This document shows positions 3,072 to 17,067 of a DNA stretch of 23,626 nt, one piece after another; the stretch's first letter is position 1; every line of letters begins with the position of its first letter. A model generated the notes under the pieces. It saw only the letters and a program-made list of their open reading frames with translations. It was not told the origin of the DNA and ran no database searches. The position numbers were made by a program, and so were the translations under genes. The stretch is from positions 1 to 23,626 of the IMG/VR virus record IMGVR_UViG_3300024999_000406; one strand, 5' to 3'. This DNA is from a virus.

Positions 3072-4019
3072 CTACACCGCCACCGATTTCACGGCAATCT
3101 GCAGGGCCTCAATTTCAGCAGGCGTGAATCGGTTTGATGTGACCGGGTTTAATTGATACAGTTTCTCGTCAGTTTCCCATACACCACCGAGCGTGATCGA
3201 TGCTCCGAGGTCAACCGTTGAATTGGTCTTTACCCCAATCTGAATGCCAATCCCGCCGACTCCATCAGTTGCCCTGACCGCGACCCTTACACCCTTGCAG
3301 ATAAAATCCCCGGCAGGCATTCCGGTGAGATTGCATTGAAAGCTCTGGTCAGCCGTGTCGGTGTAGATGGTATCGGCATCTGAAATTGTAACCTCGTCAA
3401 TGCTGGCGTAACCATTTGTCCACTCACTGGCATCTCCGTCAGCATTCGGAGCAAGGGTTTTCAATGACATCAGCCTTGTATCTTCGTCGGCCACTATTAA
3501 TTCAGATAAATAATAATCAACAGCGGCACTCCCAACGATAGCCACGGAGTTCAGTTCTGATATTCCGGAAATCGATGAGTCCCCGGTAAAGTCAATTTTT
3601 AAGGTGCCGTTGAAATATAGTTTTATATTTGAGCTTGCCCCGAAGTTTGTTATTTGCAGGTCAAACAAACCGGCGCTCGTAAACGATGCTCCCGATTCTT
3701 CGGCTAGTTGGGCAAAAGAACTGCCGTCGAACGTCGCAATAGCGAGTTTGGCTGTGGTTGCTGAAACTCTGACAAATACCCCTTTCCCGCTGGATAGGTC
3801 AACCAGCCCAGCCAGCGTCTTGCTTGTTGACGAGCTGTTGAAATAGCAATAAAAATGTAGCCACCCCGCCGTTATTGGCGAAAAAGCTTTTGTTTTGTTC
3901 GTCGCAGCACATACCAATCCGCACCTTGCGTAGGCCGCTCTTTGCCTTCCTGTATTTATCGTAACCGCGCCACCATTCGGGAAGTCGATATCCTCACCAC
4001 CGCACCAAATAATACTCAT
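3072..4019 (-). CDS. Lectin-like (LamG/ConA-type) tail fibre or adsorption protein
   Basis: 315-aa protein starting at ATG 4019 (ATGA overlap with the previous gene, AAGGGG SD); a longer reading from 4058 lacks these signals. It opens with SIIWCGGEDIDFPNGG. Residues about 40-200 are beta-rich with features of a concanavalin/LamG sandwich (GWLHFYCYF, GLFDLQITNF, IKLYFNGTL, YLSELIVADED). The C-terminal third is a second beta-rich module with a Thr/Asp-rich start. Such proteins usually sit at the tail tip and bind host surface sugars. The lectin call is by pattern and is moderate; placement among tail genes is firm. Confidence 0.78.
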   Translation of the reverse strand: MSIIWCGGEDIDFPNGGAVTINTGRQRAAYARCGLVCAATNKTKAFSPITAGWLHFYCYFNSSSTSKTLAGLVDLSSGKGVFVRVSATTAKLAIATFDGSSFAQLAEESGASFTSAGLFDLQITNFGASSNIKLYFNGTLKIDFTGDSSISGISELNSVAIVGSAAVDYYLSELIVADEDTRLMSLKTLAPNADGDASEWTNGYASIDEVTISDADTIYTDTADQSFQCNLTGMPAGDFICKGVRVAVRATDGVGGIGIQIGVKTNSTVDLGASITLGGVWETDEKLYQLNPVTSNRFTPAEIEALQIAVKSVAV

Positions 4020-4540
4020 GACCGTACCCCTTTGACCATTATCGAAACACCAGCCCATGTTGCATCTTGGGCGGGAAAAACGAAAGACAACCTATCTCCG
4101 GCCGCAAAAGCGGTTTCGGTGCCCGCCCATGTTGCCGAAGTCGTGCCGCCGGCAGCAACCGTCATTGTGGCAAACTGGGTGCCGTTTTTCCTGATACTGA
4201 CCACAGCCTCAGCGGTCGGGCCGGTATTGGCAAAATAGGCCGATCCGGTGAGATTTGCCGGGAATGTGACACCAGATGGCAGAATGCAGCTTATCTCGGC
4301 GGCGGCGGCCGGTTTGTCGCCTGACTGGTACCCAATACTCACCCCGACAGTAGTGGCCCCGGCCAGCTCGGTCTCGGTAAAATACCTGTCATCATGGGTA
4401 TGAGACGTGGCCGCCTTGCCGCTGATGGCCGAGACATTCGCGGTGATCTGCGAGTCCAGGCTCGCGAGTGGCGGGTTCATCTCTGCCGCCGAGAAGTGCG
4501 TTACCTCATCTTGGTATGGAGTATGATAATTTGTCGTCAT
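4016..4540 (-). CDS. Tail fibre-like protein
   Basis: 174-aa protein carrying SHTHDDRYFTETEL at residues 46-59, a motif widely seen in trimeric phage tail fibres, where it marks the junction of a coiled-coil shaft and a beta domain. Residues 1-45 contain a probable short coiled coil (ASLDSQITANVSAIS). The rest is a Gly/Ala/Thr-rich beta domain likely to be a small C-terminal head domain. It overlaps both neighbours by four bases. It is shorter than most fibres and may attach to a larger tail protein. Confidence 0.8.
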   Translation of the reverse strand: MTTNYHTPYQDEVTHFSAAEMNPPLASLDSQITANVSAISGKAATSHTHDDRYFTETELAGATTVGVSIGYQSGDKPAAAAEISCILPSGVTFPANLTGSAYFANTGPTAEAVVSIRKNGTQFATMTVAAGGTTSATWAGTETAFAAGDRLSFVFPAQDATWAGVSIMVKGVRS

Positions 4541-4771: not shown

Positions 4772-5869
4772 TTATCCCAAGGCGTAAAGTAGTGTCATGT
4801 TCATCACGAAAGCGTGGAGTGGAGGAGATGATTCAACCGTGAGCATGAAATACGGCTGGACCTCTGTTGCAAGTTGGTCGCGTTGGTATTTGAATGAGGC
4901 TGAACTACCGGAAAGGACGGTTTTCGATGCTTCGTCCGCGTCATATCCGGTCGTTGCCGAATATACCTGACCGGTGCCTATGATCTTCGTGAACGTCACT
5001 TTCCATCCGGTTGATGGCGCACTTATCAGCCTGCCGTATTGGTCCCGGAACTGGACTGAAATATCAGTCTCTGGCGTGTCGTCGGATTCGCTCCATGGAA
5101 ATTCCGCATCAGAGGTTGTGGTCAGTGAAGTGGCCCTTGGCACCGTCCAAAGAATACCGATTCTCTCGCTTGTGATCGTGGCCTCGCCGCCGACCCAAAG
5201 GATGAAGTTGAGCAGGATATGATTCGCCGGCACTCCCGGCATCGGTGGATTGCTGGTTGCAGGTGTCCCCGTGATGTAATCGGTCACCCGGTCGGCGCCG
5301 ATCACAATCAGATCATAGCGGAAGTATCCTTCGGCGGGTGGCGCTGCAAGCTCAAACGATGGCACGCCAAGTCCCATCACCGGGACCGATCCCATCACTA
5401 TTGTCGAGTCGGCGGTCATCAGGGGGTATCCGGTATTTTCTCCCAGGTAGTTATAAATCGTGCCGTTGATCCGATATCGGCCCGCTGATATCAGGACACT
5501 GTTAGATGGCGGCTCGGTTGCGGAAACAACCATGCCCTCGATAATTCCGTCTGCCGTGGTGCCGGCCGGCGGCAGGGCGCTGCCGAGAACAGGTTGAGGA
5601 ATGGCCCGACCCTGGCCGGAAACCTCAAGATACCCCCGGACGCCGCCGCGATGTGATATCCTGACCGCATTGCCTATTCTCAGCCATGACGGTCGAGCCT
5701 TCTGGTTTCTGGGAAAATGGCAGGTTATCAGCTCGTTGCTGCCCTGGATTTTCACCCGGCAAGAACTGTCTGAGTCAATGGCCCACAGGACACCATCCCT
5801 TGACTCGACCCGGCTTTTTGAGGATCGATCAATGGCCCGCCCCAGGAATTTACGCCGCGCCGACCTCAT
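4772..5869 (-). CDS. Tail tip/baseplate-associated structural protein
   Basis: 365 aa counted from the ATG at 5869, which forms an ATGA overlap with the hub gene and has GGGTGG upstream; the GTG at 5878 is the alternative. The N-terminus is basic (RSARRKFLGRAIDRSSKSR). Residues about 25-90 look like a small OB-like beta domain (VLWAIDSDSSCRVKIQG, WLRIGNAVRISHRGG). The rest is beta-rich with Pro-rich linkers and one hydrophobic Gly/Val stretch but no convincing TM. Position directly after the hub gene fits an adaptor between hub and fibres. I do not recognise a named family. Confidence 0.75.
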   Translation of the reverse strand: MRSARRKFLGRAIDRSSKSRVESRDGVLWAIDSDSSCRVKIQGSNELITCHFPRNQKARPSWLRIGNAVRISHRGGVRGYLEVSGQGRAIPQPVLGSALPPAGTTADGIIEGMVVSATEPPSNSVLISAGRYRINGTIYNYLGENTGYPLMTADSTIVMGSVPVMGLGVPSFELAAPPAEGYFRYDLIVIGADRVTDYITGTPATSNPPMPGVPANHILLNFILWVGGEATITSERIGILWTVPRATSLTTTSDAEFPWSESDDTPETDISVQFRDQYGRLISAPSTGWKVTFTKIIGTGQVYSATTGYDADEASKTVLSGSSASFKYQRDQLATEVQPYFMLTVESSPPLHAFVMNMTLLYALG

Positions 5870-8800
5870 AGCCGCCACCCGGTGATAGTGTCAATCACGC
5901 CACCCACGGTACTGCTGCCGTCAGGCTTGGTATATGTGCGCTGCAGGTCGGTGATAAATACATCGATAACGGCACCGGAATATGGATGCTCGATCTGTAT
6001 CCGGTCGCAGATTTCATCCTGCAGATGGGCAATTTTCTCGAATGACAGCCGGCTGCGTTGGGCCTGGACGATGGCCATTTCGTGTTCCGCCACCTCACGG
6101 CAACTCTGCGTCGTATAGCAGAACGGGTCATCGAACGTCTCGGTAACCACCAGGCCGCCGAGTAGGGCTTGAAATTCGGTGTCGTCAACCTGCGCCGAGA
6201 CGATCTGTTTTTCCTCGCCGGTCGGCTTGGCGTAAACCTCATAGGAGTAGCTTGCTACTTGCCCGAGGATGTAATTGATGGCGGCAGAGACGACAGACAG
6301 TGCGAAGATATACGGCCCGCAACTCTGGGTGCAGCTGATCGCGATGGCACCGACGATAAGCAGCAGGGCGATGGCGGCAATCAGCACATCCATGATCCCC
6401 GGTAGAATAATTGTGATCTCGCAATATCGGTTGTTCGGGTCGACCAGGGAAAGGTATTCGTCGCCGCCAGACCGGGACCAGAGGATTTTGAAATCCTTGA
6501 TAGAGGCCAGCACCACAAGGCGCGGGTCGTAGCAAACCCGGTCAAGGTCGGTGCTGTAGTTGACCCGAACAACTTTCGTGTCGTTGTCCCACCATCCGCA
6601 CGACCCCATGATGGTTTCCATCAGCTCTTCGGCGTAAGTGACTTCCAGGAAATACAACCCTTCACCGGTCACCACGACCCGGTTCGTGAACGATGAATAA
6701 TTGTCGTCAGGCGTGAAGCGGATAATCTCAGAGCCTACGTAGGCATGAGAAACAGATTGTTCCAGGTCAATGACCTTCGGCGCGAAGATGCCGTCCATGT
6801 CGAAATACGGCACACATTGAAAGTGGTCGAGAATCGCCGAGATAATGGCCTGGAAATCAACATCGACCCACTGATGGTGAATCTCGTGGGAATTCGGGAA
6901 ATCAGGGATGGCGATGGACCCGGCGTTGATGTTGGCGTGATCCATCAGCAGTGAGGTTGTCATTTGCTCCGGCGCGTTGGTGTCGTACCGCGTCGTTGCC
7001 GGTATCTCGATATCGCCCCAGATGAAATCAGGGCTCACGCAATCAACCTTCATTGTCGGGTATTGGCCGCGCACGTAGTCGATATGTAGTGCGTCAACGA
7101 TGTACTTGCCTTGCGGCTGCCAGTAATCAATGCCGCCGATTCTTTCCCCGAGGGACACCTCGATCTGCTTTCCTTTTTTCAGGAATTCAGACCATGTCGA
7201 ATATCGGTTATTCGGGTCAAAGAGATGGCCATGGCTGACGGCAAAAGAGAGCGTCCCGGTCTTATCCACAGACCATCCGAGCGTCACCGGTTGGCCGTCA
7301 ACGAGATAATCGGCCAAGGTTTTTTCCTTCACATCACGGTCCCACACCGCGCTTAATTCCGTACCGTCAAGCCGGGTCCAGGTTGACCACAGGATGTTTT
7401 CCTGGTCGACAGCGACGGCTTGGTTGGTTTCTGCCCGGCCAAGTGTCAGGTCTTCCGGCGTACCCCATACCCAGCCGCCAGAATTAATGCCTTCTGTGAG
7501 CTTCCCCTTATTGAAAGATCCGTCCTCGTCAAACACCTGGACGCCGGTCGTGACAAAAACCGCACCGGTCATAATCCTTCCATTCTCGGCGTCATAGGCC
7601 ACAGAATAAATATTACCGTCGCTGAACCCTTGCACTGAATTTTGATCGTAAAGTGTCCATGCTCCGCTCTCGATATCGAAAGACGCCACACCACCGATAG
7701 AATCGTCGACGGCAACCAATATCCTGCCATCACCGGTCGGCACCTTTTGGATAAGATTGTATTCGTTAACGGTCGCCCATGACGGCTGGTAATATGTGAT
7801 CTCTTCGGTGTCGAGGTTGATTTTTACCATTCCTCGATGGTTTTCCTGGTCGTCTATGGTCACATAGTCAAATGAACCGTACAGACAGCCATCGTAATAA
7901 CAGGCATGATGCACCCCGCCATGAGGATACGATGAGTGGGTAGATACCGCAAATTCCTTTAAAATCTCGCCACTCAACATGTCGATAACCGTTGTTTTTC
8001 CCGGTTTGTTGCTCCATGTTGGGAGTGAAGAGTTCGCCAAAACGATGATGCAATTCCTCTCGGGGACAACTATCATCTGTCCCATGCCGTCAACCTGCGC
8101 GTCGGTAAACAGATCCGCTGTCGACAAAATCACATGGAAGGGATATTTGCCGGTGGCTGCATCAATCGTCTCGGTGAGGTCGATATACCCAAGGACCGTC
8201 GATCTGAAATATATATAGCCGTTTGCCAGTAACACATAGACCCGTTTTGCCGTCGCGTCGGCCCACGTGGCCTTAATATTTGCAGCGTATTCGGTATCAA
8301 AAGATGCCTTGTAATATGGCCAGGTGACATCTACGTTACAGGTAATCTCAAGGTCTGGGTTGGAGCTGAAGGAGTATTCGGTTATCGTCTCTTCGATATC
8401 ATTGATAACACAAAGGACCTTTGTGTTTCCAGCGGTGGAAAAGACAATATACTCTCCATCTCCTCGATCTTTCTGCGCCCAAACATGATCATTTTTGAAG
8501 ATGTCATTGTACCCAGGAGAGGTCTGTGTGGTATACGACTGGACAACTTCCCATGACTCGGTGTCGATAACAACTATGCCGCACAGTATTCTGTATCCTG
8601 AATAATAATGGACCTGATATACATAGAGGCGATGCGTGGCAGGGTTAAAGTGCAGACTTGAGGCATCAACGTAAGAGTCGTATTCACAATCAACCGGCCA
8701 TAACAAGGTTTCACTGTTCGCAGTCAGCACCTTGCGCTCGTCGGTGTAGGCAAGCGCTAAATCGCCGTTGGTGCGCTCCGCAATGAATGGATTGATGCAC

Positions 8801-9591
8801 GACGTTCCCCATTCGGTATATGTGGTCACCTGTACCGGTGCGCCCCACGTTGCCCCGCTGTCGGCCGACAAGATGTAGTAGACATTCGATATGGTCGTCA
8901 GGCCCTCATCCTTCTCGAAGTCCACGTAATCGAAAAACAGCAAGGTCTCGCCGCCTGTCGTGTGAATCATTGCGAGGTTGGCGATGGTCCTGGTGTTGAG
9001 CAGGCCCAAAAGGGTCACATTGCTCGCCGCCGACCATGTGAGGAAGTCTGCGGAAGTCCTTGTCCTGATCTGGTACGTTTCCGCCGTTGAATTGTAAACG
9101 ATGTATGCCAACAGGAAAGATCCATCCGCCAACCGCACAACCGCCGGGTCGAGTGGCGTTTCCGGGGATACCAGTGTTTGAATGATGGCCGAGGCGGAAA
9201 CGACATTGCTCGAACCATCCAGGACCGTGCGGCGAAGAACGCGGCCTACTGTGTAGACGATTCCGATATTGCCGTCCACCAGTTCGGCGGCGGCGATATT
9301 CTGAATGGTGCCGTAATTGACTGGCGAAACGGATTCAGTCCAGAATGTGCGGTTGTCGTCGGTTCTGACCTGGACAATATTGACGCCGTTGCGGATAAAG
9401 AGCCCGACCATGGCGGACGATACGGAAGGAATCAGGATGTTCTTTTCTTCCTTGATCGATGAACCGTTGAAATATTCACCATCGAAGGGAATGGAATCCT
9501 GTGCCTGAGTGGCCAACATCTTAATGATGGGATGGCGGCCAGTGATGCTGTCCTGCGCGGCGGCGAGTGCCGGTGTAAGCGTGATGGCCAT
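5866..9591 (-). CDS. Tail hub protein with large beta-propeller insertion
   Basis: 1241 aa. The N-terminus (LTPALAAAQDSITGRHPIIK) and the C-terminal third (about 745-1241, including GWSVDKTGTLSF and a long hub-like tail ending near YTKPDGSS) look like one phage tail-hub protein. Between them, residues about 50-745 contain repeating four-stranded patterns with an Asp-box (SADSGATW at 242-249) and later quinoprotein/WD-like blades (DGRILVAVDD, YSVAYDAENGRIMTG), suggesting one or two beta-propellers. Two hydrophobic segments lie at about 1067-1087 and 1094-1112. The start overlaps the upstream stop (TAATG). Likely role: tail tip, receptor or glycan binding and genome delivery. Domain limits are by eye. 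Confidence 0.85.
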   Translation of the reverse strand: MAITLTPALAAAQDSITGRHPIIKMLATQAQDSIPFDGEYFNGSSIKEEKNILIPSVSSAMVGLFIRNGVNIVQVRTDDNRTFWTESVSPVNYGTIQNIAAAELVDGNIGIVYTVGRVLRRTVLDGSSNVVSASAIIQTLVSPETPLDPAVVRLADGSFLLAYIVYNSTAETYQIRTRTSADFLTWSAASNVTLLGLLNTRTIANLAMIHTTGGETLLFFDYVDFEKDEGLTTISNVYYILSADSGATWGAPVQVTTYTEWGTSCINPFIAERTNGDLALAYTDERKVLTANSETLLWPVDCEYDSYVDASSLHFNPATHRLYVYQVHYYSGYRILCGIVVIDTESWEVVQSYTTQTSPGYNDIFKNDHVWAQKDRGDGEYIVFSTAGNTKVLCVINDIEETITEYSFSSNPDLEITCNVDVTWPYYKASFDTEYAANIKATWADATAKRVYVLLANGYIYFRSTVLGYIDLTETIDAATGKYPFHVILSTADLFTDAQVDGMGQMIVVPERNCIIVLANSSLPTWSNKPGKTTVIDMLSGEILKEFAVSTHSSYPHGGVHHACYYDGCLYGSFDYVTIDDQENHRGMVKINLDTEEITYYQPSWATVNEYNLIQKVPTGDGRILVAVDDSIGGVASFDIESGAWTLYDQNSVQGFSDGNIYSVAYDAENGRIMTGAVFVTTGVQVFDEDGSFNKGKLTEGINSGGWVWGTPEDLTLGRAETNQAVAVDQENILWSTWTRLDGTELSAVWDRDVKEKTLADYLVDGQPVTLGWSVDKTGTLSFAVSHGHLFDPNNRYSTWSEFLKKGKQIEVSLGERIGGIDYWQPQGKYIVDALHIDYVRGQYPTMKVDCVSPDFIWGDIEIPATTRYDTNAPEQMTTSLLMDHANINAGSIAIPDFPNSHEIHHQWVDVDFQAIISAILDHFQCVPYFDMDGIFAPKVIDLEQSVSHAYVGSEIIRFTPDDNYSSFTNRVVVTGEGLYFLEVTYAEELMETIMGSCGWWDNDTKVVRVNYSTDLDRVCYDPRLVVLASIKDFKILWSRSGGDEYLSLVDPNNRYCEITIILPGIMDVLIAAIALLLIVGAIAISCTQSCGPYIFALSVVSAAINYILGQVASYSYEVYAKPTGEEKQIVSAQVDDTEFQALLGGLVVTETFDDPFCYTTQSCREVAEHEMAIVQAQRSRLSFEKIAHLQDEICDRIQIEHPYSGAVIDVFITDLQRTYTKPDGSSTVGGVIDTITGWRL

Positions 9592-9971
9592 TAAACCGCC
9601 ACTCCTTCGTCAAGGATCAAGAGCTTCATGGATACATTCTGCCGCCACCACTTCCCCAAGAACATGAATAATTGGCCGTCGTAGTCCAGAACCTCAACCG
9701 AGTATTTCTTTCCGCCGCCGTCTTGCGGCGTCCAAAATACCGGAGTGTCGGCGAGGTAAATGGTCTCCATGGCGTCATATTGGGCGGTCTCACACAGGGT
9801 CCAGTCGAGGGTGATCTTTTTCCCGGTCAGCATTGCGCCCCATGAGAAAAAGGCTACTCCGCCGTAGGTCTGCACATCGGCCGTGGTCCTGACGGGTGTC
9901 AAAAGATTGGACACCTTGTTCGGATTTCGGGAAAATGTGTAATTCCCGAGCGACATCCGCAGGTAGCTCAT
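9591..9971 (-). CDS. Distal-tail-like small tail protein
   Basis: 126-aa protein between the tape measure and the hub, the position of Dit-type proteins in siphophages. It is beta-rich with conserved-looking elements MSLGNYTFSRNP at 6-17, ITLDWTLCE near 53-61 and a Trp-rich end (FLGKWWRQNVSMKLLIL). It lacks the C-terminal galectin-like half of larger Dit proteins, so if it is Dit-like it is the ring-forming half only. Both junctions are overlapping (ATGA upstream, TAATG downstream). The call rests mainly on gene order and size. Confidence 0.75.
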   Translation of the reverse strand: MSYLRMSLGNYTFSRNPNKVSNLLTPVRTTADVQTYGGVAFFSWGAMLTGKKITLDWTLCETAQYDAMETIYLADTPVFWTPQDGGGKKYSVEVLDYDGQLFMFLGKWWRQNVSMKLLILDEGVAV

Positions 9972-12900
9972 GCGGCCCCCCGGATCACCCTGATAACCGC
10001 GTCTTCAATCTCCCGCTTCAATTCAACCGATATCCTCTTCGACATCTCGCCGCCATTGATCGCAACCGGGACGTTGATGGTATTTGACTGGTTTACGCTG
10101 CTCTGCTGTGCATTGTCCTTCCGCCCTACAATATGCTGACTGAGTGCTTCAAGTTGTCCGGGGGTAAACACCGCTTCATCTTTCTTGAGGATGCTCAGGA
10201 ATTCGTCAGACTTGAGACCGTTATGAAATTTGGGGATTCCGGATGTGCTCGCCAGGGGAACATCACGAGTGAATGCAGGCTGATCAACACCGACAACACC
10301 GCCGCCATGCATGGCCCCTGCCCCGGCGCTCATCCCAGCCCTCAGCCAACTGACCCCGCTTGTCATGTTGCCGATCAACCACTTCGCCCAGAAGTCGGCA
10401 AGCGCCCGGGTAAGGGAATTCATGAAACCCTTGAAATAGTCCATGAAGGATTTCATGTCGCCCTGCAGCGCGTCGAAGAACAGGTCTTCAAACGATGAGT
10501 GCATGGCGTTGGCGGTATCACTGGCGAGATCAGCCATGCGTTTTGTCGATGAGGCCCAATCTTTGGTAGCGTCCTTCCATGCTACGGCAAAGGCCCCGGC
10601 CTCGGTCGTCATGTCTTGATATCTCTGCCGCAGGGCATCAAGGTATGCGAGGTGTTCTGGAGACTCGCCCCTGAGTTTCGCCAGCTCGATTTCAATGTCG
10701 AGCAGCTTGGCTTCGGCCGCCGCCTGCTTTTCGTATTCGCCGGTCAGTTCAGCGAGGGAAGAAGCCGCTTCGCCTGCCGATCTGGCCTTGTCAAGTTCCA
10801 GTTCGCGGTAATTGATGGCCTGCTGTTTCTGAAGGGCAAAGAGCGCCTGCTGCGCCGCCATGTCGCCTTCCCGTGCGGCCGCCATCATTCTGAGCCGTTC
10901 GACGCTCTGGTTGTCGAGTGATGCCTGTTCGCGGGCCGCTTCAAGGGTCTTGCCTTGGGATTCAAGGAGTTGGATCTCGATTTCCTTGTATGCTCGCAAG
11001 GTTTCCCGGCTGGTAGTGATCGCTTCGGCGGACCCTTTCTCCCGCGCAATGTTCAGTTTGCCCTGTGCCTCTTCGACTGCCCGTGTGGCGTTCTCAACCC
11101 GCTTGAGTGCGTCGTACTCGTTCTTCAGGTCTTTATCGGGCCTGGACTTGCCTTCTTTGTCGGTGACCGGCGCAACCTTGGCGGCGGCAGCCTGCGCGTC
11201 GGCAAGCTCCTTCTGCTTGGCCTTCAGGTCGGCCTCGAGGGATTTCTCGGCAATGCTCTGTCTGGTGTCGACATATTTCTGATAAGATTCAATCCCGAGC
11301 GCGTAGGCCGTCTCGTTGACTTGCTGCTCCATGTCGAGGCTGTTTTTGATGATGGCGAGCTTGCGCTCTTCGGCCGCCTTGAGGTATTCAAACTTCGCGC
11401 TGTTGGCGGCATTCATGTCATTGGCCAGGCTTCGGCCGCCATCCTCGTCAGGTGCCGCCGGATTCCGCACAAACTTGTCAGATGTTCCGCCGCTCCTGCC
11501 GGTGCCGTCGGTATTCAGGCCGATTGATCTGTTTGCCAACCCTTGTAGCTTGCGGTCGCCCTCTTCGTATCTCTTTTTAAAAAGGTCGTTCCACTCCCGG
11601 AACTTGGAATCCATGTCGCCGAAAGTCAGGGCCGCGCCGATGGTCGTCATCGTCCCGCCGACTTTATCAAGCAGCATGTTGAGCCGGTAGAATTCCGCTA
11701 TGATCGACGTGACACCTTCCTTGATCGACGTAACACCTGAAAGGAAATCCTCGGACCATTTGAGCTGTTTGGTCTTTTCATCCATCACAACGATGGAATC
11801 GATGATCTCTTTCAGCTCAAGCTTGAACGCTTCAAAGAGAGGTTCACCGATCAAGGCGGCTACCTGCTGGGCAACGTCAAGCATGTTCGACATGACGCCT
11901 TTCCAGGTGCTCTGCAGTTCGACCCCGGCCACCTGATACGCAGACAGTTTGCCCATCAGGAAATTAAACATGCCGTTTGCGTTGCCCTTGAATTCCGCCA
12001 CATCCTTGTTGGTGATTCCGAGGACCGTGGCAATTCGGCTTGTTCGCGGATTGATGGCACCGGTCAGCATGCTGCGCGTTTCCTCACCGAGTTGGTGCAT
12101 CAAGGCCCCGGATGCGTCGATAGCGCCGGCAGCCTGAATCATGGCTGTGGTGAACTGCTGCACCTGTGACTTGTCGAAGCCGGCCCGCATGGCAACCGGC
12201 AGGGTCTCTTGATATGCCCTGACAAGCTGGTCAAGGGTCGCGATGGTGGCAAGATTCGCGGCCTTCAATTCCTCAAGGACATCTCTTGAATCGGACTGTG
12301 CCTCCTTGAATGCCGCCGCGCCGTCCAATACTTTGCCGGTGTAGACGTCGACATACTTGCCGGCCGTAAGGAATGATGAGGCAATGCCGAGTTGAGATAT
12401 TTCGATCTGCGCGTTGTAGGTGATGACGCTTTTCAGGCCGTCAATCAGTTTTGATATCGCCGTGAACGCCGCAGTATAAATTCCGACCGTGATGATCATG
12501 TCCTTGAATTTCGTCATCGAAAATTCAGTGGACTTGCCGAGATTGTTCATCCCGGCGGCGGTCTTGTCTATGGTCGCCTGGGATACGTTCATCGACGCCC
12601 CAAGTTGGCGCATTTCCTGCTCGGTGAGGTTGGCGGCCTTAGCGATGCTGGCGAGTGCTCTTTCTTGCGCTTTAGTGGCCTGGGTCTGCAGGAGTTTGCC
12701 TTGCAGTCTGGCAAATTCGGTTTCCGTCAATCCGGTTTGCCGCTGCAGGGTCTTCATGTCGACCCCGAGCGAATCCATGGCAGCGCCGGCAACCTTGCCG
12801 CTATTCGAAAGCGCGGTCAGGTCGTTTGCAAATGCGGCGGTCTGGCCCTTGAACCCGGCGAACAGTCCGGCGTTGGCTTCCAGTGAGAGAGAGGACATTG

Positions 12901-13366
12901 CAGCAGCGGCGCCATGGATGGCTGTCGTGACCGTGTAAACCTGTGCAGCAGACACGCCCATCTGCTGGCCAAGGGCGGCAATCTCAACTTTCGACAGTCC
13001 GGCAGCCACCGCAACTGACTTGAGAGCTTTTTCCTGCTGGCTGGCGGCCTGGGTCTCAAGCATCCGCTGCTGCAGTTTGACAAACTCGCCACTGGCAAGG
13101 CCGGTGATTCGCTGCAGACCCCCAAGGCCGACGCCGATATTCTGGAAGCTTTCTTTTACCAGGCTCTGCGAGCGTGAAAGGGTCCCGAGATTGGCAACCA
13201 GACTGTTGATGCTACCCTTGATTTTCGACGGTGCGAAGGCGTTGTTCAGCGCATCCGACATGCCCTTGGCAGATTCGGTGATAATCTGCTTCGCCTGCAG
13301 CATGTCCTTGCGGAGCTGGGTGTAATCTCCCTTGATCGGTACATAGATGCCCGTTATTTTTCTCAT
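9968..13366 (-). CDS. Tape measure protein
   Basis: 1132-aa, helix-rich protein that would set tail length and be threaded inside the tail tube. It has a coiled-coil N-terminus with a duplicated 63-residue block (84-146 and 207-269), hydrophobic patches near 290-308 (MIITVGIYTAAFTAI), a long charged coiled coil through about 640-900, and a lambda-type C-terminus with FEDLFFDALQGDMKSFMDYF followed by Gly-rich GGGVVGVDQP and SILKKDEAVFTPGQLEAL. Size and place after the tail chaperone fit the family. It starts by ATGA overlap with the gp10-like gene. At about 1.5 angstrom per residue, a tail of roughly 150-170 nm would be expected; that is a rule of thumb, not a measurement. Confidence 0.96.
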   Translation of the reverse strand: MRKITGIYVPIKGDYTQLRKDMLQAKQIITESAKGMSDALNNAFAPSKIKGSINSLVANLGTLSRSQSLVKESFQNIGVGLGGLQRITGLASGEFVKLQQRMLETQAASQQEKALKSVAVAAGLSKVEIAALGQQMGVSAAQVYTVTTAIHGAAAAMSSLSLEANAGLFAGFKGQTAAFANDLTALSNSGKVAGAAMDSLGVDMKTLQRQTGLTETEFARLQGKLLQTQATKAQERALASIAKAANLTEQEMRQLGASMNVSQATIDKTAAGMNNLGKSTEFSMTKFKDMIITVGIYTAAFTAISKLIDGLKSVITYNAQIEISQLGIASSFLTAGKYVDVYTGKVLDGAAAFKEAQSDSRDVLEELKAANLATIATLDQLVRAYQETLPVAMRAGFDKSQVQQFTTAMIQAAGAIDASGALMHQLGEETRSMLTGAINPRTSRIATVLGITNKDVAEFKGNANGMFNFLMGKLSAYQVAGVELQSTWKGVMSNMLDVAQQVAALIGEPLFEAFKLELKEIIDSIVVMDEKTKQLKWSEDFLSGVTSIKEGVTSIIAEFYRLNMLLDKVGGTMTTIGAALTFGDMDSKFREWNDLFKKRYEEGDRKLQGLANRSIGLNTDGTGRSGGTSDKFVRNPAAPDEDGGRSLANDMNAANSAKFEYLKAAEERKLAIIKNSLDMEQQVNETAYALGIESYQKYVDTRQSIAEKSLEADLKAKQKELADAQAAAAKVAPVTDKEGKSRPDKDLKNEYDALKRVENATRAVEEAQGKLNIAREKGSAEAITTSRETLRAYKEIEIQLLESQGKTLEAAREQASLDNQSVERLRMMAAAREGDMAAQQALFALQKQQAINYRELELDKARSAGEAASSLAELTGEYEKQAAAEAKLLDIEIELAKLRGESPEHLAYLDALRQRYQDMTTEAGAFAVAWKDATKDWASSTKRMADLASDTANAMHSSFEDLFFDALQGDMKSFMDYFKGFMNSLTRALADFWAKWLIGNMTSGVSWLRAGMSAGAGAMHGGGVVGVDQPAFTRDVPLASTSGIPKFHNGLKSDEFLSILKKDEAVFTPGQLEALSQHIVGRKDNAQQSSVNQSNTINVPVAINGGEMSKRISVELKREIEDAVIRVIRGAA
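12560..13117 (-). repeat. Duplicated 63-residue block in tape measure
   Basis: Residues 84-146 (nt 13117-12929) and 207-269 (nt 12748-12560) align without gaps at a spacing of 123 residues. Shared positions include LQR-TGL, EF--LQ--LL-TQA, Q--AL-S-A-AA-L and QLG--M-VS-A. The block is all helical and resembles a repeated structural unit of the inner tail. Confidence 0.8.
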
Positions 13367-15898: not shown

Positions 15899-16228
15899 TT
15901 AACCCTCACTCAACCCGGTTTTGGCCATGATATCGTATTCAACGTGTTTCTCGCCGATATCGATCAGGGCCGTGATGTCGTAATATTTGCTATCATAAAC
16001 AATCCGCATCGTTGCATTAAGTCCAGCAATCCAGCGGATGTTGAATCGTGTCGTCGTTTCATTCTGCGCCGCCTGCGCCGCCACCAGATCGCGGCCGCGC
16101 AATGGCAGAACTGCTGCCCATATCGGCTGTCCGAAATCTGCCCATGTGTGAACTGTGCCACCGTATGTGTCGGTGGTTTCGGTTCTGCTCTGGATGGTGA
16201 TGATTTTATCTCTCTGACCTGGTCTCAT
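15899..16228 (-). CDS. Head-tail joining (adaptor/stopper) protein
   Basis: 109-aa protein with the family pattern MRPGQRDKIITIQSRTE at the N-terminus, DTYGGTVHTWADFGQPIWA at 20-38, a helix around 46-58 and a closing beta region (RFNIRWIAGL, MRIVYDSKYYDI). This matches Phage_H_T_join/SPP1 gp16-type stoppers, which close the portal channel after packaging and connect to the tail. The start is TGATG-coupled to the connector gene with GGAGG 5 nt upstream. Confidence is high from motif plus order. Confidence 0.9.
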   Translation of the reverse strand: MRPGQRDKIITIQSRTETTDTYGGTVHTWADFGQPIWAAVLPLRGRDLVAAQAAQNETTTRFNIRWIAGLNATMRIVYDSKYYDITALIDIGEKHVEYDIMAKTGLSEG

Positions 16229-17067
16229 CAGAACCTCCGCGCCGAATCCATGGCGAACAGATGAGAGGCCGCCCGGGGCAACCTTGCCGGAATCACGTTT
16301 CGCTCAAGCACGGTATCGCCCCTGTTCTCGTGAAAGTCGGTGATTATCAGCTTCATACCGGCAATCGTGGTCTGCGGAATTTCCCCGATAAACATGGATC
16401 CGGTCCCGGCCGTGGTGATATCGATTGCTGCGCCGCCGGAAGTCGCCGCCAGTTTCAGCGAGACACCGGCCACAGCATCATGGACGAAATAATCTGTGAG
16501 AGCGGCCAGGCCGGTAGGTAATGCCCCGCCGGACACCGACAGCCTGACCTTGTCGCCATCGGCAAATGGATGGTTGGCGGCCGCCAAGGTATCAGTAGCC
16601 GCGGTCGCCGTTAATGGCACCAGATAGCCGGCCTTGAACCTGATATGGATCGGGTTTTTCGGCGAAAGCGTTGCATCCGGCCAGGATTTGTCATATCCAA
16701 GCACGATTCGGCCAGGTGTCGAATCCGTGTCGACCTCATACTCGGTATCGGCGAAGGTGTTCACCGTGCCGTCACTGTCTCGGTATTTCACGAACTCCAC
16801 GGCCCGTAGCGGCGGATGATGTAACTGGATCTCACCGTCGGCCGGCCAGGCGTCAAGGTACAAATCCCAGATCTGCAGGACCATGGCCTTCCATGTCTCG
16901 GTTTCCGCAACCTGACGAGCTGCCGTGATCCAGCCGGTCAGCATCTCATCCTTGACGGTATATAAAGCGGCACCGGCAGCATCAACGGCGAGGCCAAGAT
17001 GCAGCTTCGCTTCGGTGAGCGAGATGGGCTCGGCGGCCGGCGCCGTATATTGAGACAGGGCAGACAA
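16228..17067 (-). CDS. gp6-like head-tail connector with inserted beta domain
   Basis: 279 aa, longer than the roughly 100-200 aa usual for gp6-like connectors. The connector fold is split: residues 12-150 (ISLTEAKLHL, VAETETWKAMVLQIWDL, EIQLHHPPLRAVEFVKY, IHIRFKAGY) and 229-279 (KLIITDFHENRGD, DSARRF). Between them, about 152-228, lies an Ala/Thr/Gly-rich beta module with NHPFADGDKVRLS and TDYFVHDAVAG. The likely start is a TTG at 17067, immediately after the upstream stop. The protein would form the ring below the portal; the insert would project outwards. Confidence 0.88.
   Translation of the reverse strand: MSALSQYTAPAAEPISLTEAKLHLGLAVDAAGAALYTVKDEMLTGWITAARQVAETETWKAMVLQIWDLYLDAWPADGEIQLHHPPLRAVEFVKYRDSDGTVNTFADTEYEVDTDSTPGRIVLGYDKSWPDATLSPKNPIHIRFKAGYLVPLTATAATDTLAAANHPFADGDKVRLSVSGGALPTGLAALTDYFVHDAVAGVSLKLAATSGGAAIDITTAGTGSMFIGEIPQTTIAGMKLIITDFHENRGDTVLERNVIPARLPRAASHLFAMDSARRF

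Follow-up and report, generated by a model that had tools for sequence, protein, structure and literature searches.

A gp27-type tail hub protein of an uncultivated virus with two predicted nested β-propellers

Introduction

Evolved Tals of Gram-positive siphophages bear carbohydrate-binding modules in a gp27-like domain, as described in the available part of PMC7291167. The megatron (g15) of the Rhodobacter capsulatus gene transfer agent (RcGTA) consists, in the portion of PMC7296036 at hand, of an N-terminal segment (residues 1-46), about 700 residues of adhesin-like or peripheral domains and a central hub domain from residue 745. At the tail end of crAss001, the muzzle includes a seven-bladed propeller that bears inserted domains as well as a gating loop; the accessible text assigns it a structural role (PMC10172136). 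Here we describe the tail hub gene of a 23626-base IMG/VR virus record (IMGVR_UViG_3300024999_000406; the whole record is hereafter called the window), which encodes a 1241-residue protein that combines an N-terminal segment, a nested double propeller and a gp27-like hub domain. To our knowledge, solved siphophage hubs use either small binding modules or separate receptor-binding proteins. The available parts of the literature searched (including PMC7296036, PMC10172136, PMC7048315, PMC7291167, PMC10386132 and PMC10038345) describe no propeller in a gp27-type hub.

Results and discussion

Architecture of the hub protein

A reading made from the letters of the window alone (the sequence-only reading) had proposed that positions 7357-9444, which correspond to residues 50-745 of the 1241-residue open reading frame, encode a propeller region inserted in a tail hub protein. 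AlphaFold2 was run on residues 1-1200 with a 28-row alignment, and structural matches were scored by VIA-align against the PDB matches of Foldseek. The model (mean predicted local distance difference test score, pLDDT, 85.9; predicted template modelling score, pTM, 0.63) is all-beta in this region and matches both sialidase and WD40/YncE structures, confirming that the propeller region is real. The first propeller, P1, is predicted to be a six-bladed sialidase-fold propeller whose parts lie at residues ~40-291 and ~691-758; its top match, the sialidase NanA (3h71_A), aligns 301 residues with a root mean square deviation of 2.7 and Z 30.2 over the model range 32-754. About 390 residues of that range form a second propeller, and the sialidase-like propeller is therefore split. 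GH93 arabinanase folds are further matches of P1 (3a71, Z 28.4; 2w5n, Z 27.6). The second propeller, P2, finds its matches over the model range 286-690 at Z ~25 (7seu_D, Z 25.9; 3vgz, ~25.8; 8pqw_B, Z 25.3). In the DSSP strand assignment, four P1 blades (48-254) and part of blade 5 (263-291) precede seven P2 blades (310-690), after which the remainder of P1 blade 5 and blade 6 follow at 693-758; blade count and blade assignment are our own reading of the DSSP line. The division into an Asp-box part and a WD/quinoprotein-like part that had been suspected thus recurs as a sialidase-type P1 and a WD40/YncE-type P2. The nesting of P2 within P1, the C-terminal part of P1 at ~691-758 and the family-wide occurrence of this layout go beyond what had been noticed.

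Residues 755-1241 were predicted separately from the propeller model, with a pLDDT of 88.6 and a pTM of 0.69. Along its full length this model matches hubs of phages, pyocins, type VI secretion systems and extracellular contractile injection systems (eCIS), namely 8fqc_C1 (Z 23.7), Mu 9ki1_G (Z 23.2), eCIS 7aef_q (Z 22.4), VgrG1 4mtk (Z 22.2), 1wru (Z 21.4) and T4 gp27 1k28_D (Z 17.9). On this model the C-terminal part of the protein shows the two tail-tube-like domains of the hub fold and belongs to the gp27-type family, in agreement with the hub C-terminus recognized earlier from the sequence. The N-terminal strand (residues 19-28) is probably part of the first hub domain, judging from the start of a shorter, propeller-less hub at a distant locus (L079, see below). 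A gp27/gp44-fold hub bearing a large propeller region joins an adsorption-type module and a DNA-exit ring in one chain, as the sequence-only reading had supposed. We hold this anatomy of a propeller-bearing hub with high confidence (Table 1).

Between two hub strands, the model places helices 1067-1086 and 1092-1109 as a hydrophobic hairpin. All 28 aligned members long enough to cover this position have a hydrophobic segment of variable sequence there; a 19-residue Kyte-Doolittle window exceeds 1.6 in 25 of them (the exceptions are L067, L060 and L076), and in several other members the hydrophobic peak spans just one helix of the hairpin. In phage T5, receptor contact opens the hub, plug hairpins touch the membrane and tape-measure segments are thought to form a channel, according to the part of PMC10038345 available. 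By analogy, the hairpin of the window protein may have a T5-like plug or membrane role.

Table 1. Parts of the hub protein and neighbouring genes in the window
Feature	Coordinates	Strand	Remarks
Tail hub gene	5866..9591	(-)	1241 aa; N-terminal segment, nested double propeller and gp27-like hub
N-terminal segment, residues 1-39	9475..9591	(-)	helix 7-12, strand 19-28; L9, P21 and P35 invariant in the family
P1 first part, residues ~40-291	8719..9474	(-)	predicted sialidase fold; blades 1-4 and start of blade 5
Asp-box SADSGATW, residues 242-249	8845..8868	(-)	after third strand of P1 blade 4
P2, residues ~300-690	7522..8694	(-)	predicted seven-bladed, WD40/YncE-like; nested in P1 blade 5
P1 second part, residues ~691-758	7318..7521	(-)	end of blade 5 and blade 6; closes P1
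Hub, residues ~759-1241	5869..7317	(-)	gp27 / Mu gp44 / VgrG-type
Hydrophobic two-helix hairpin, residues 1067-1109	6265..6393	(-)	within the hub
Head and tail modules		(-)	order: terminase, portal, protease, major capsid, major tail protein, tail assembly genes, tape measure
Tape-measure protein	9968..13366	(-)	1132 aa
Gene upstream of hub	9591..9971	(-)	126 aa; Dit-like by position
Gene immediately downstream of hub	4772..5878	(-)	368 aa
Fibre-like genes	4019-4540 among them		after the hub and the 368-aa gene

Comparison with known hubs and propellers

The hubs of Mu gp44, T4 gp27, VgrG and eCIS share the hub fold with the window protein over ~300 residues, whereas the latter has ~180 more residues within 755-1241, including the hairpin; we know of no propellers in those hubs. 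GH33 sialidases such as NanA (3h71) resemble P1 in the six-bladed fold and the Asp-box, but P1 has no conserved arginine triad, is broken by a whole second propeller and is part of a virion hub. Gp45 of phage phi11 is said to be a propeller-bearing receptor-binding protein at a siphophage tail tip; it would thus also use a propeller for surface binding there, but reportedly as a separate protein outside the hub chain.

The evolved Tals, in the available description (PMC7291167), likewise bear their extra modules on a gp27-like hub domain beside the tape measure. The layout is alike in that P1 and P2, as putative binding modules, occupy the stretch of the hub chain from residue 39 to residue 759. 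The modules differ: two carbohydrate-binding modules in the evolved Tals as described there, and here, far larger, two nested propellers of ~700 residues in total, with a hydrophobic hairpin in the hub. The RcGTA megatron has the same domain order as the window hub, and an RcGTA virion chain, 6tba_8A, matches the hub with Z 14.1; yet in RcGTA the gp27-like fold extends over two proteins, whereas the window hub is one chain aligning to residues 10-336 of 9ki1_G. In the accessible portion of PMC7296036, moreover, the iris/penetration helix of RcGTA is N-terminal instead of within the hub, and no propeller is mentioned for the peripheral part. Podovirus nozzles and crassvirus muzzles also place a propeller with inserted domains at the tail end, but as the hexameric nozzle of a short tail and not as the gp27-type hub of a long one (PMC10172136, available part). 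The best reading of the window hub is an extreme analogue of the evolved Tals, that is, an adhesin-type hub.

A family of hubs with the same layout

When the whole hub or parts of it served as single-sequence queries, no relatives came up in cultured phages, viral contigs or genome contigs. A restricted stretch of the hub found L047, 33% identical to the window protein over the full length, and the resulting two-row alignment (A2) then found 30 IMG/VR loci, with full-length hubs in all but L074, which runs into a contig end. The family alignment (A3) comprises 29 rows, the window protein and 28 relatives at ~25-54% identity to it; L054 (same contig as L047) and L063 and L072 (identical by score to L076 and L069) were left out. 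A scan with the hub domain only returned 48 contigs; by contig name, 30 of these had been found before and 18 were new. Separate profiles for P1, P2 and hub found all three in 47 of the 48, among them all but one of the 18 additions. These scans used patterns within the hub and so did not favour contigs with propellers. Among relatives whose gene start is intact, all 47 carry P1, P2 and hub in the same order. L105, in which only the hub profile matched (521 aa), was considered as a natural propeller-less sibling and rejected: its gene lacks the 5' part up to a point inside the last P1 blade and lies directly against an inverted head module, and a rearranged or chimeric contig is likelier.

Divergence of the propellers and surface binding

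Over 378 pairs (28 rows, L074 left out), mean pairwise identity is 42.6% in the hub, 29.1% in P1, 25.6% in P2 and 29.8% in the hydrophobic hairpin, and the hub is more conserved than P2 in 377 pairs and than P1 in 368. In close pairs, P2 falls to ~20-30% while most flanking windows stay above 50%; L055 and L061, for instance, share 55-80% over residues 1-260, ~20-33% over 361-700 and 71-75% at 761-860. The window protein and L048 are 25-38% identical over residues 41-220 and 67% in the hub. L060 and L076 show the reverse, with propellers at 79-80% against 68% for the hub. Identity ranks nevertheless correlate between the parts (Spearman 0.49-0.65). P1 also takes up additional sequence, with 74 extra residues in L061 and 213 in L077; the L077 addition consists of one stretch of 37 residues and one of 176 and falls between positions 164 and 171 of the hub alignment. 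L099 is longer by ~385 residues at its N-terminus. In L077, a propeller that already holds a propeller thus carries a further insertion.

Since P1 and P2 diverge faster than the hub, and given the P1 inserts of L077 and L061, the propellers are read as a surface-exposed binding module. The divergence pattern fits a module selected by the host surface, perhaps with some exchange. A surface-binding function appears somewhat likelier than not, and fold and divergence together make glycan binding plausible. Our preferred interpretation, which we consider reasonably probable, is that the protein is the hub of a siphovirus tail, forming the ring that closes the tail tube beneath the tape measure, and that its chain bears an adhesin module of two nested propellers. 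Beyond the anatomy, which is solid, we infer the ligand and the triggering as follows. As hubs of the gp27-type fold are trimeric, six propellers would surround the tail tip. P1, having lost any sialidase activity, would serve as a docking platform, and P1 and above all P2 would bind to a ligand on the host surface, most likely a glycan. Binding would make the propellers pull on the hub, which would open and release the tape measure, and the hydrophobic hairpin would plug the closed tube or enter the membrane.

Several points weigh against this interpretation. Any peripheral domain without assembly contacts would likewise be expected to diverge faster. The separate fibre-like genes downstream (4019-4540) could be the true receptor binders, and the hairpin could pack inside the trimer instead of meeting a membrane. 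The N-terminal strand and residues 1201-1241, furthermore, lie in separate models.

The strongest alternative, which we nevertheless judge unlikely, is that the propellers form a structural collar or gate, bracing the tail tip or docking fibres with no ligand of their own. Propellers at podovirus tail ends are structural, the crAss001 muzzle among them (PMC10172136, in the part available); the conserved residues of P1 are mainly the W, Y, G and N of the fold; and fibre-like genes come after the hub. A brace touching conserved partners ought to vary less, however, while P1 and P2 are the least conserved large parts of the protein, diverge sharply between close relatives and tolerate large inserts.

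If the propellers do form an adhesin module, the ~700-residue nested double propeller would make this hub a compact example of a single chain that unites adsorption with DNA gating, and P2 might serve as a sequence handle for host-range prediction in uncultivated phages. A bolder and rather doubtful extension is that a widespread lineage of uncultivated siphophages recognizes its receptor, triggers, gates the tube and enters the membrane by means of a single hub chain without separate fibres; P2 on a catalytically dead P1 platform would then be an exchangeable host-range cassette, its binding passed directly to the hub ring and the hairpin.

Sequence signals and the question of catalysis

The Asp-box named in the sequence-only reading was found as stated. 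A strict box, S.[DN].G.T[WFY], appears in 131 of 20000 shuffles of the hub protein, which suggests that the Asp-box is unlikely to have arisen by chance, but by itself it is weak evidence; looser, degenerate Asp-boxes are not above chance (2 seen against 1.4 expected). Sialidases usually have several Asp-boxes. Here one of canonical type is present, in 20 of the 29 family members, including the window protein. Searches of the hub against Pfam, PHROG, NCBIfam and PDB sequences gave weak matches only. Pfam BNR_2 matches the window protein below its curated cut-off (E 7e-4 for the whole protein, 2e-5 for an N-terminal piece) and recurs in 16 of the 29 members (best 3.2e-7), and the family profile matches solved sialidases around residues 176-290 (E ~6e-4). 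The present analysis thus supplies an annotation for a gene whose Pfam matches in this phage all fall below cut-off and which has no significant PHROG counterpart there.

GH33 sialidases are defined by a catalytic arginine triad and a Tyr/Glu nucleophile pair. Comparison of conserved columns in the 29-row alignment found no such triad in P1. Arg occupies columns 60, 81 and 178 in at least 20 of the 29 rows, and all three together in 17; columns 50-56 hold no conserved Arg in these rows. The window protein keeps R81 and R178, and at column 60, which is Arg in 25 rows and Ala in two, it has Ala. The Tyr column 698 (24 of 29) is Leu in the window protein; further Tyr columns exist. Because a conserved Arg triad is missing and the conserved acids at 78, 182 and 244 sit in Asp-box-like hairpins, sialidase catalysis by P1 is not supported by the alignment, and nor is the glycan cleavage of sialidase type that had been envisaged for this hub.

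P1 could still be an active glycosidase or depolymerase of another type, clearing surface polysaccharide ahead of the hub. The GH93 arabinanase fold matches, a weak Pfam GH43 match (E 4e-4) in one of the 29 members and the retention of some acidic columns (E48 in 23 of 29 rows, D751 in 21) would agree with such an enzyme. Against this, the alignment columns reveal no recognizable conserved catalytic set, and most conserved acids are those of the Asp-box-like hairpins, so that we regard an active P1 as improbable.

Age and distribution of the module

Beyond the viral contigs, the hubs of two relatives had no match in cultured phages and that of one had none in plasmids. Whole-genome searches with a single protein were negative in 14, 301 and 113 genomes, as were searches with A3 in 400 and 113. 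Among 321 genomes (the class of G011), A3 gave one match, the distant, prophage-like locus L079 (profile E 6e-16; hhalign probability 98.2 over 359 columns at 14% identity). Its hub has 485 aa and a similar hydrophobic stretch, is without propellers, and is accompanied by a related tape measure (E 3e-12) and a fibre gene (E 5e-7). The propeller-less hub of L079/L080 lies in the same gene slot, which therefore exists with and without the module. The description of the region as inserted accordingly stands relative to solved hubs and to L079/L080, where it is an added module, but not within its own family, where it is constant (47 of 48 contigs). The module is old, because the 47 relatives share P1, P2 and their order at only ~25-54% identity for those aligned, and for the same reason a recent one-off capture of a host gene into the window hub is scarcely credible, even though the distant L079/L080 hub lacks the region. 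No alignable hub was found in the head-module relatives L002-L015 or in loci L016-L046; tape-measure patterns found no relatives, and Nitratiruptor phages sharing part of the tape measure gave no lead.

Gene neighbourhood

The minus strand of the window holds an HK97-type head module and a long-tail module, and the nearest terminases in the phage collection belong to HK97-like enterobacterial phages (~56% identity). In the window and its relatives alike, the hub gene is placed behind the tape measure and a small tail gene, which by its position is Dit-like (distal tail). In 30 of 31 loci the hub is preceded by a homologue of this 126-aa gene, adjoining it in most and with an extra gene between in some, and a homologue of the 368-aa gene directly follows the hub in 26 of 31; the 31 loci represent 30 contigs (L047 and L054 share one), and several of the misses end near the hub. 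The propeller hub is thus part of a conserved tail cassette.

Some variation was seen around this cassette. In L052, L059 and L075, the P0003-like gene is separated from the hub by genes of 320-389 aa, which have part of P0003 in common. A phrog_6368-like gene, with copies 48-49% identical, is found downstream of the hub in the window (3072-4058) and in L105 (7994-9013), and upstream in L051 (5784-6752), as if it had moved alone. At 16228-17067, the window encodes a 279-aa head-tail protein whose residues ~155-227 match tail-fibre PHROG segments; the homologues of several relatives are shorter. The sister phage L002/L011 has head genes 56-91% identical to those of the window (terminase 83%, capsid 84%), but its tape measure has 2280 aa and its tail tip is of another kind and lacks a homologous hub, amounting to a tail-tip exchange. 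Another head-module relative, L013, encodes at 8529-12437 an unalignable hub-like protein of 1303 aa with a similar N-terminal motif, L.PA..AA.DS..R.P, which hints at a common N-terminal docking segment among different hubs.

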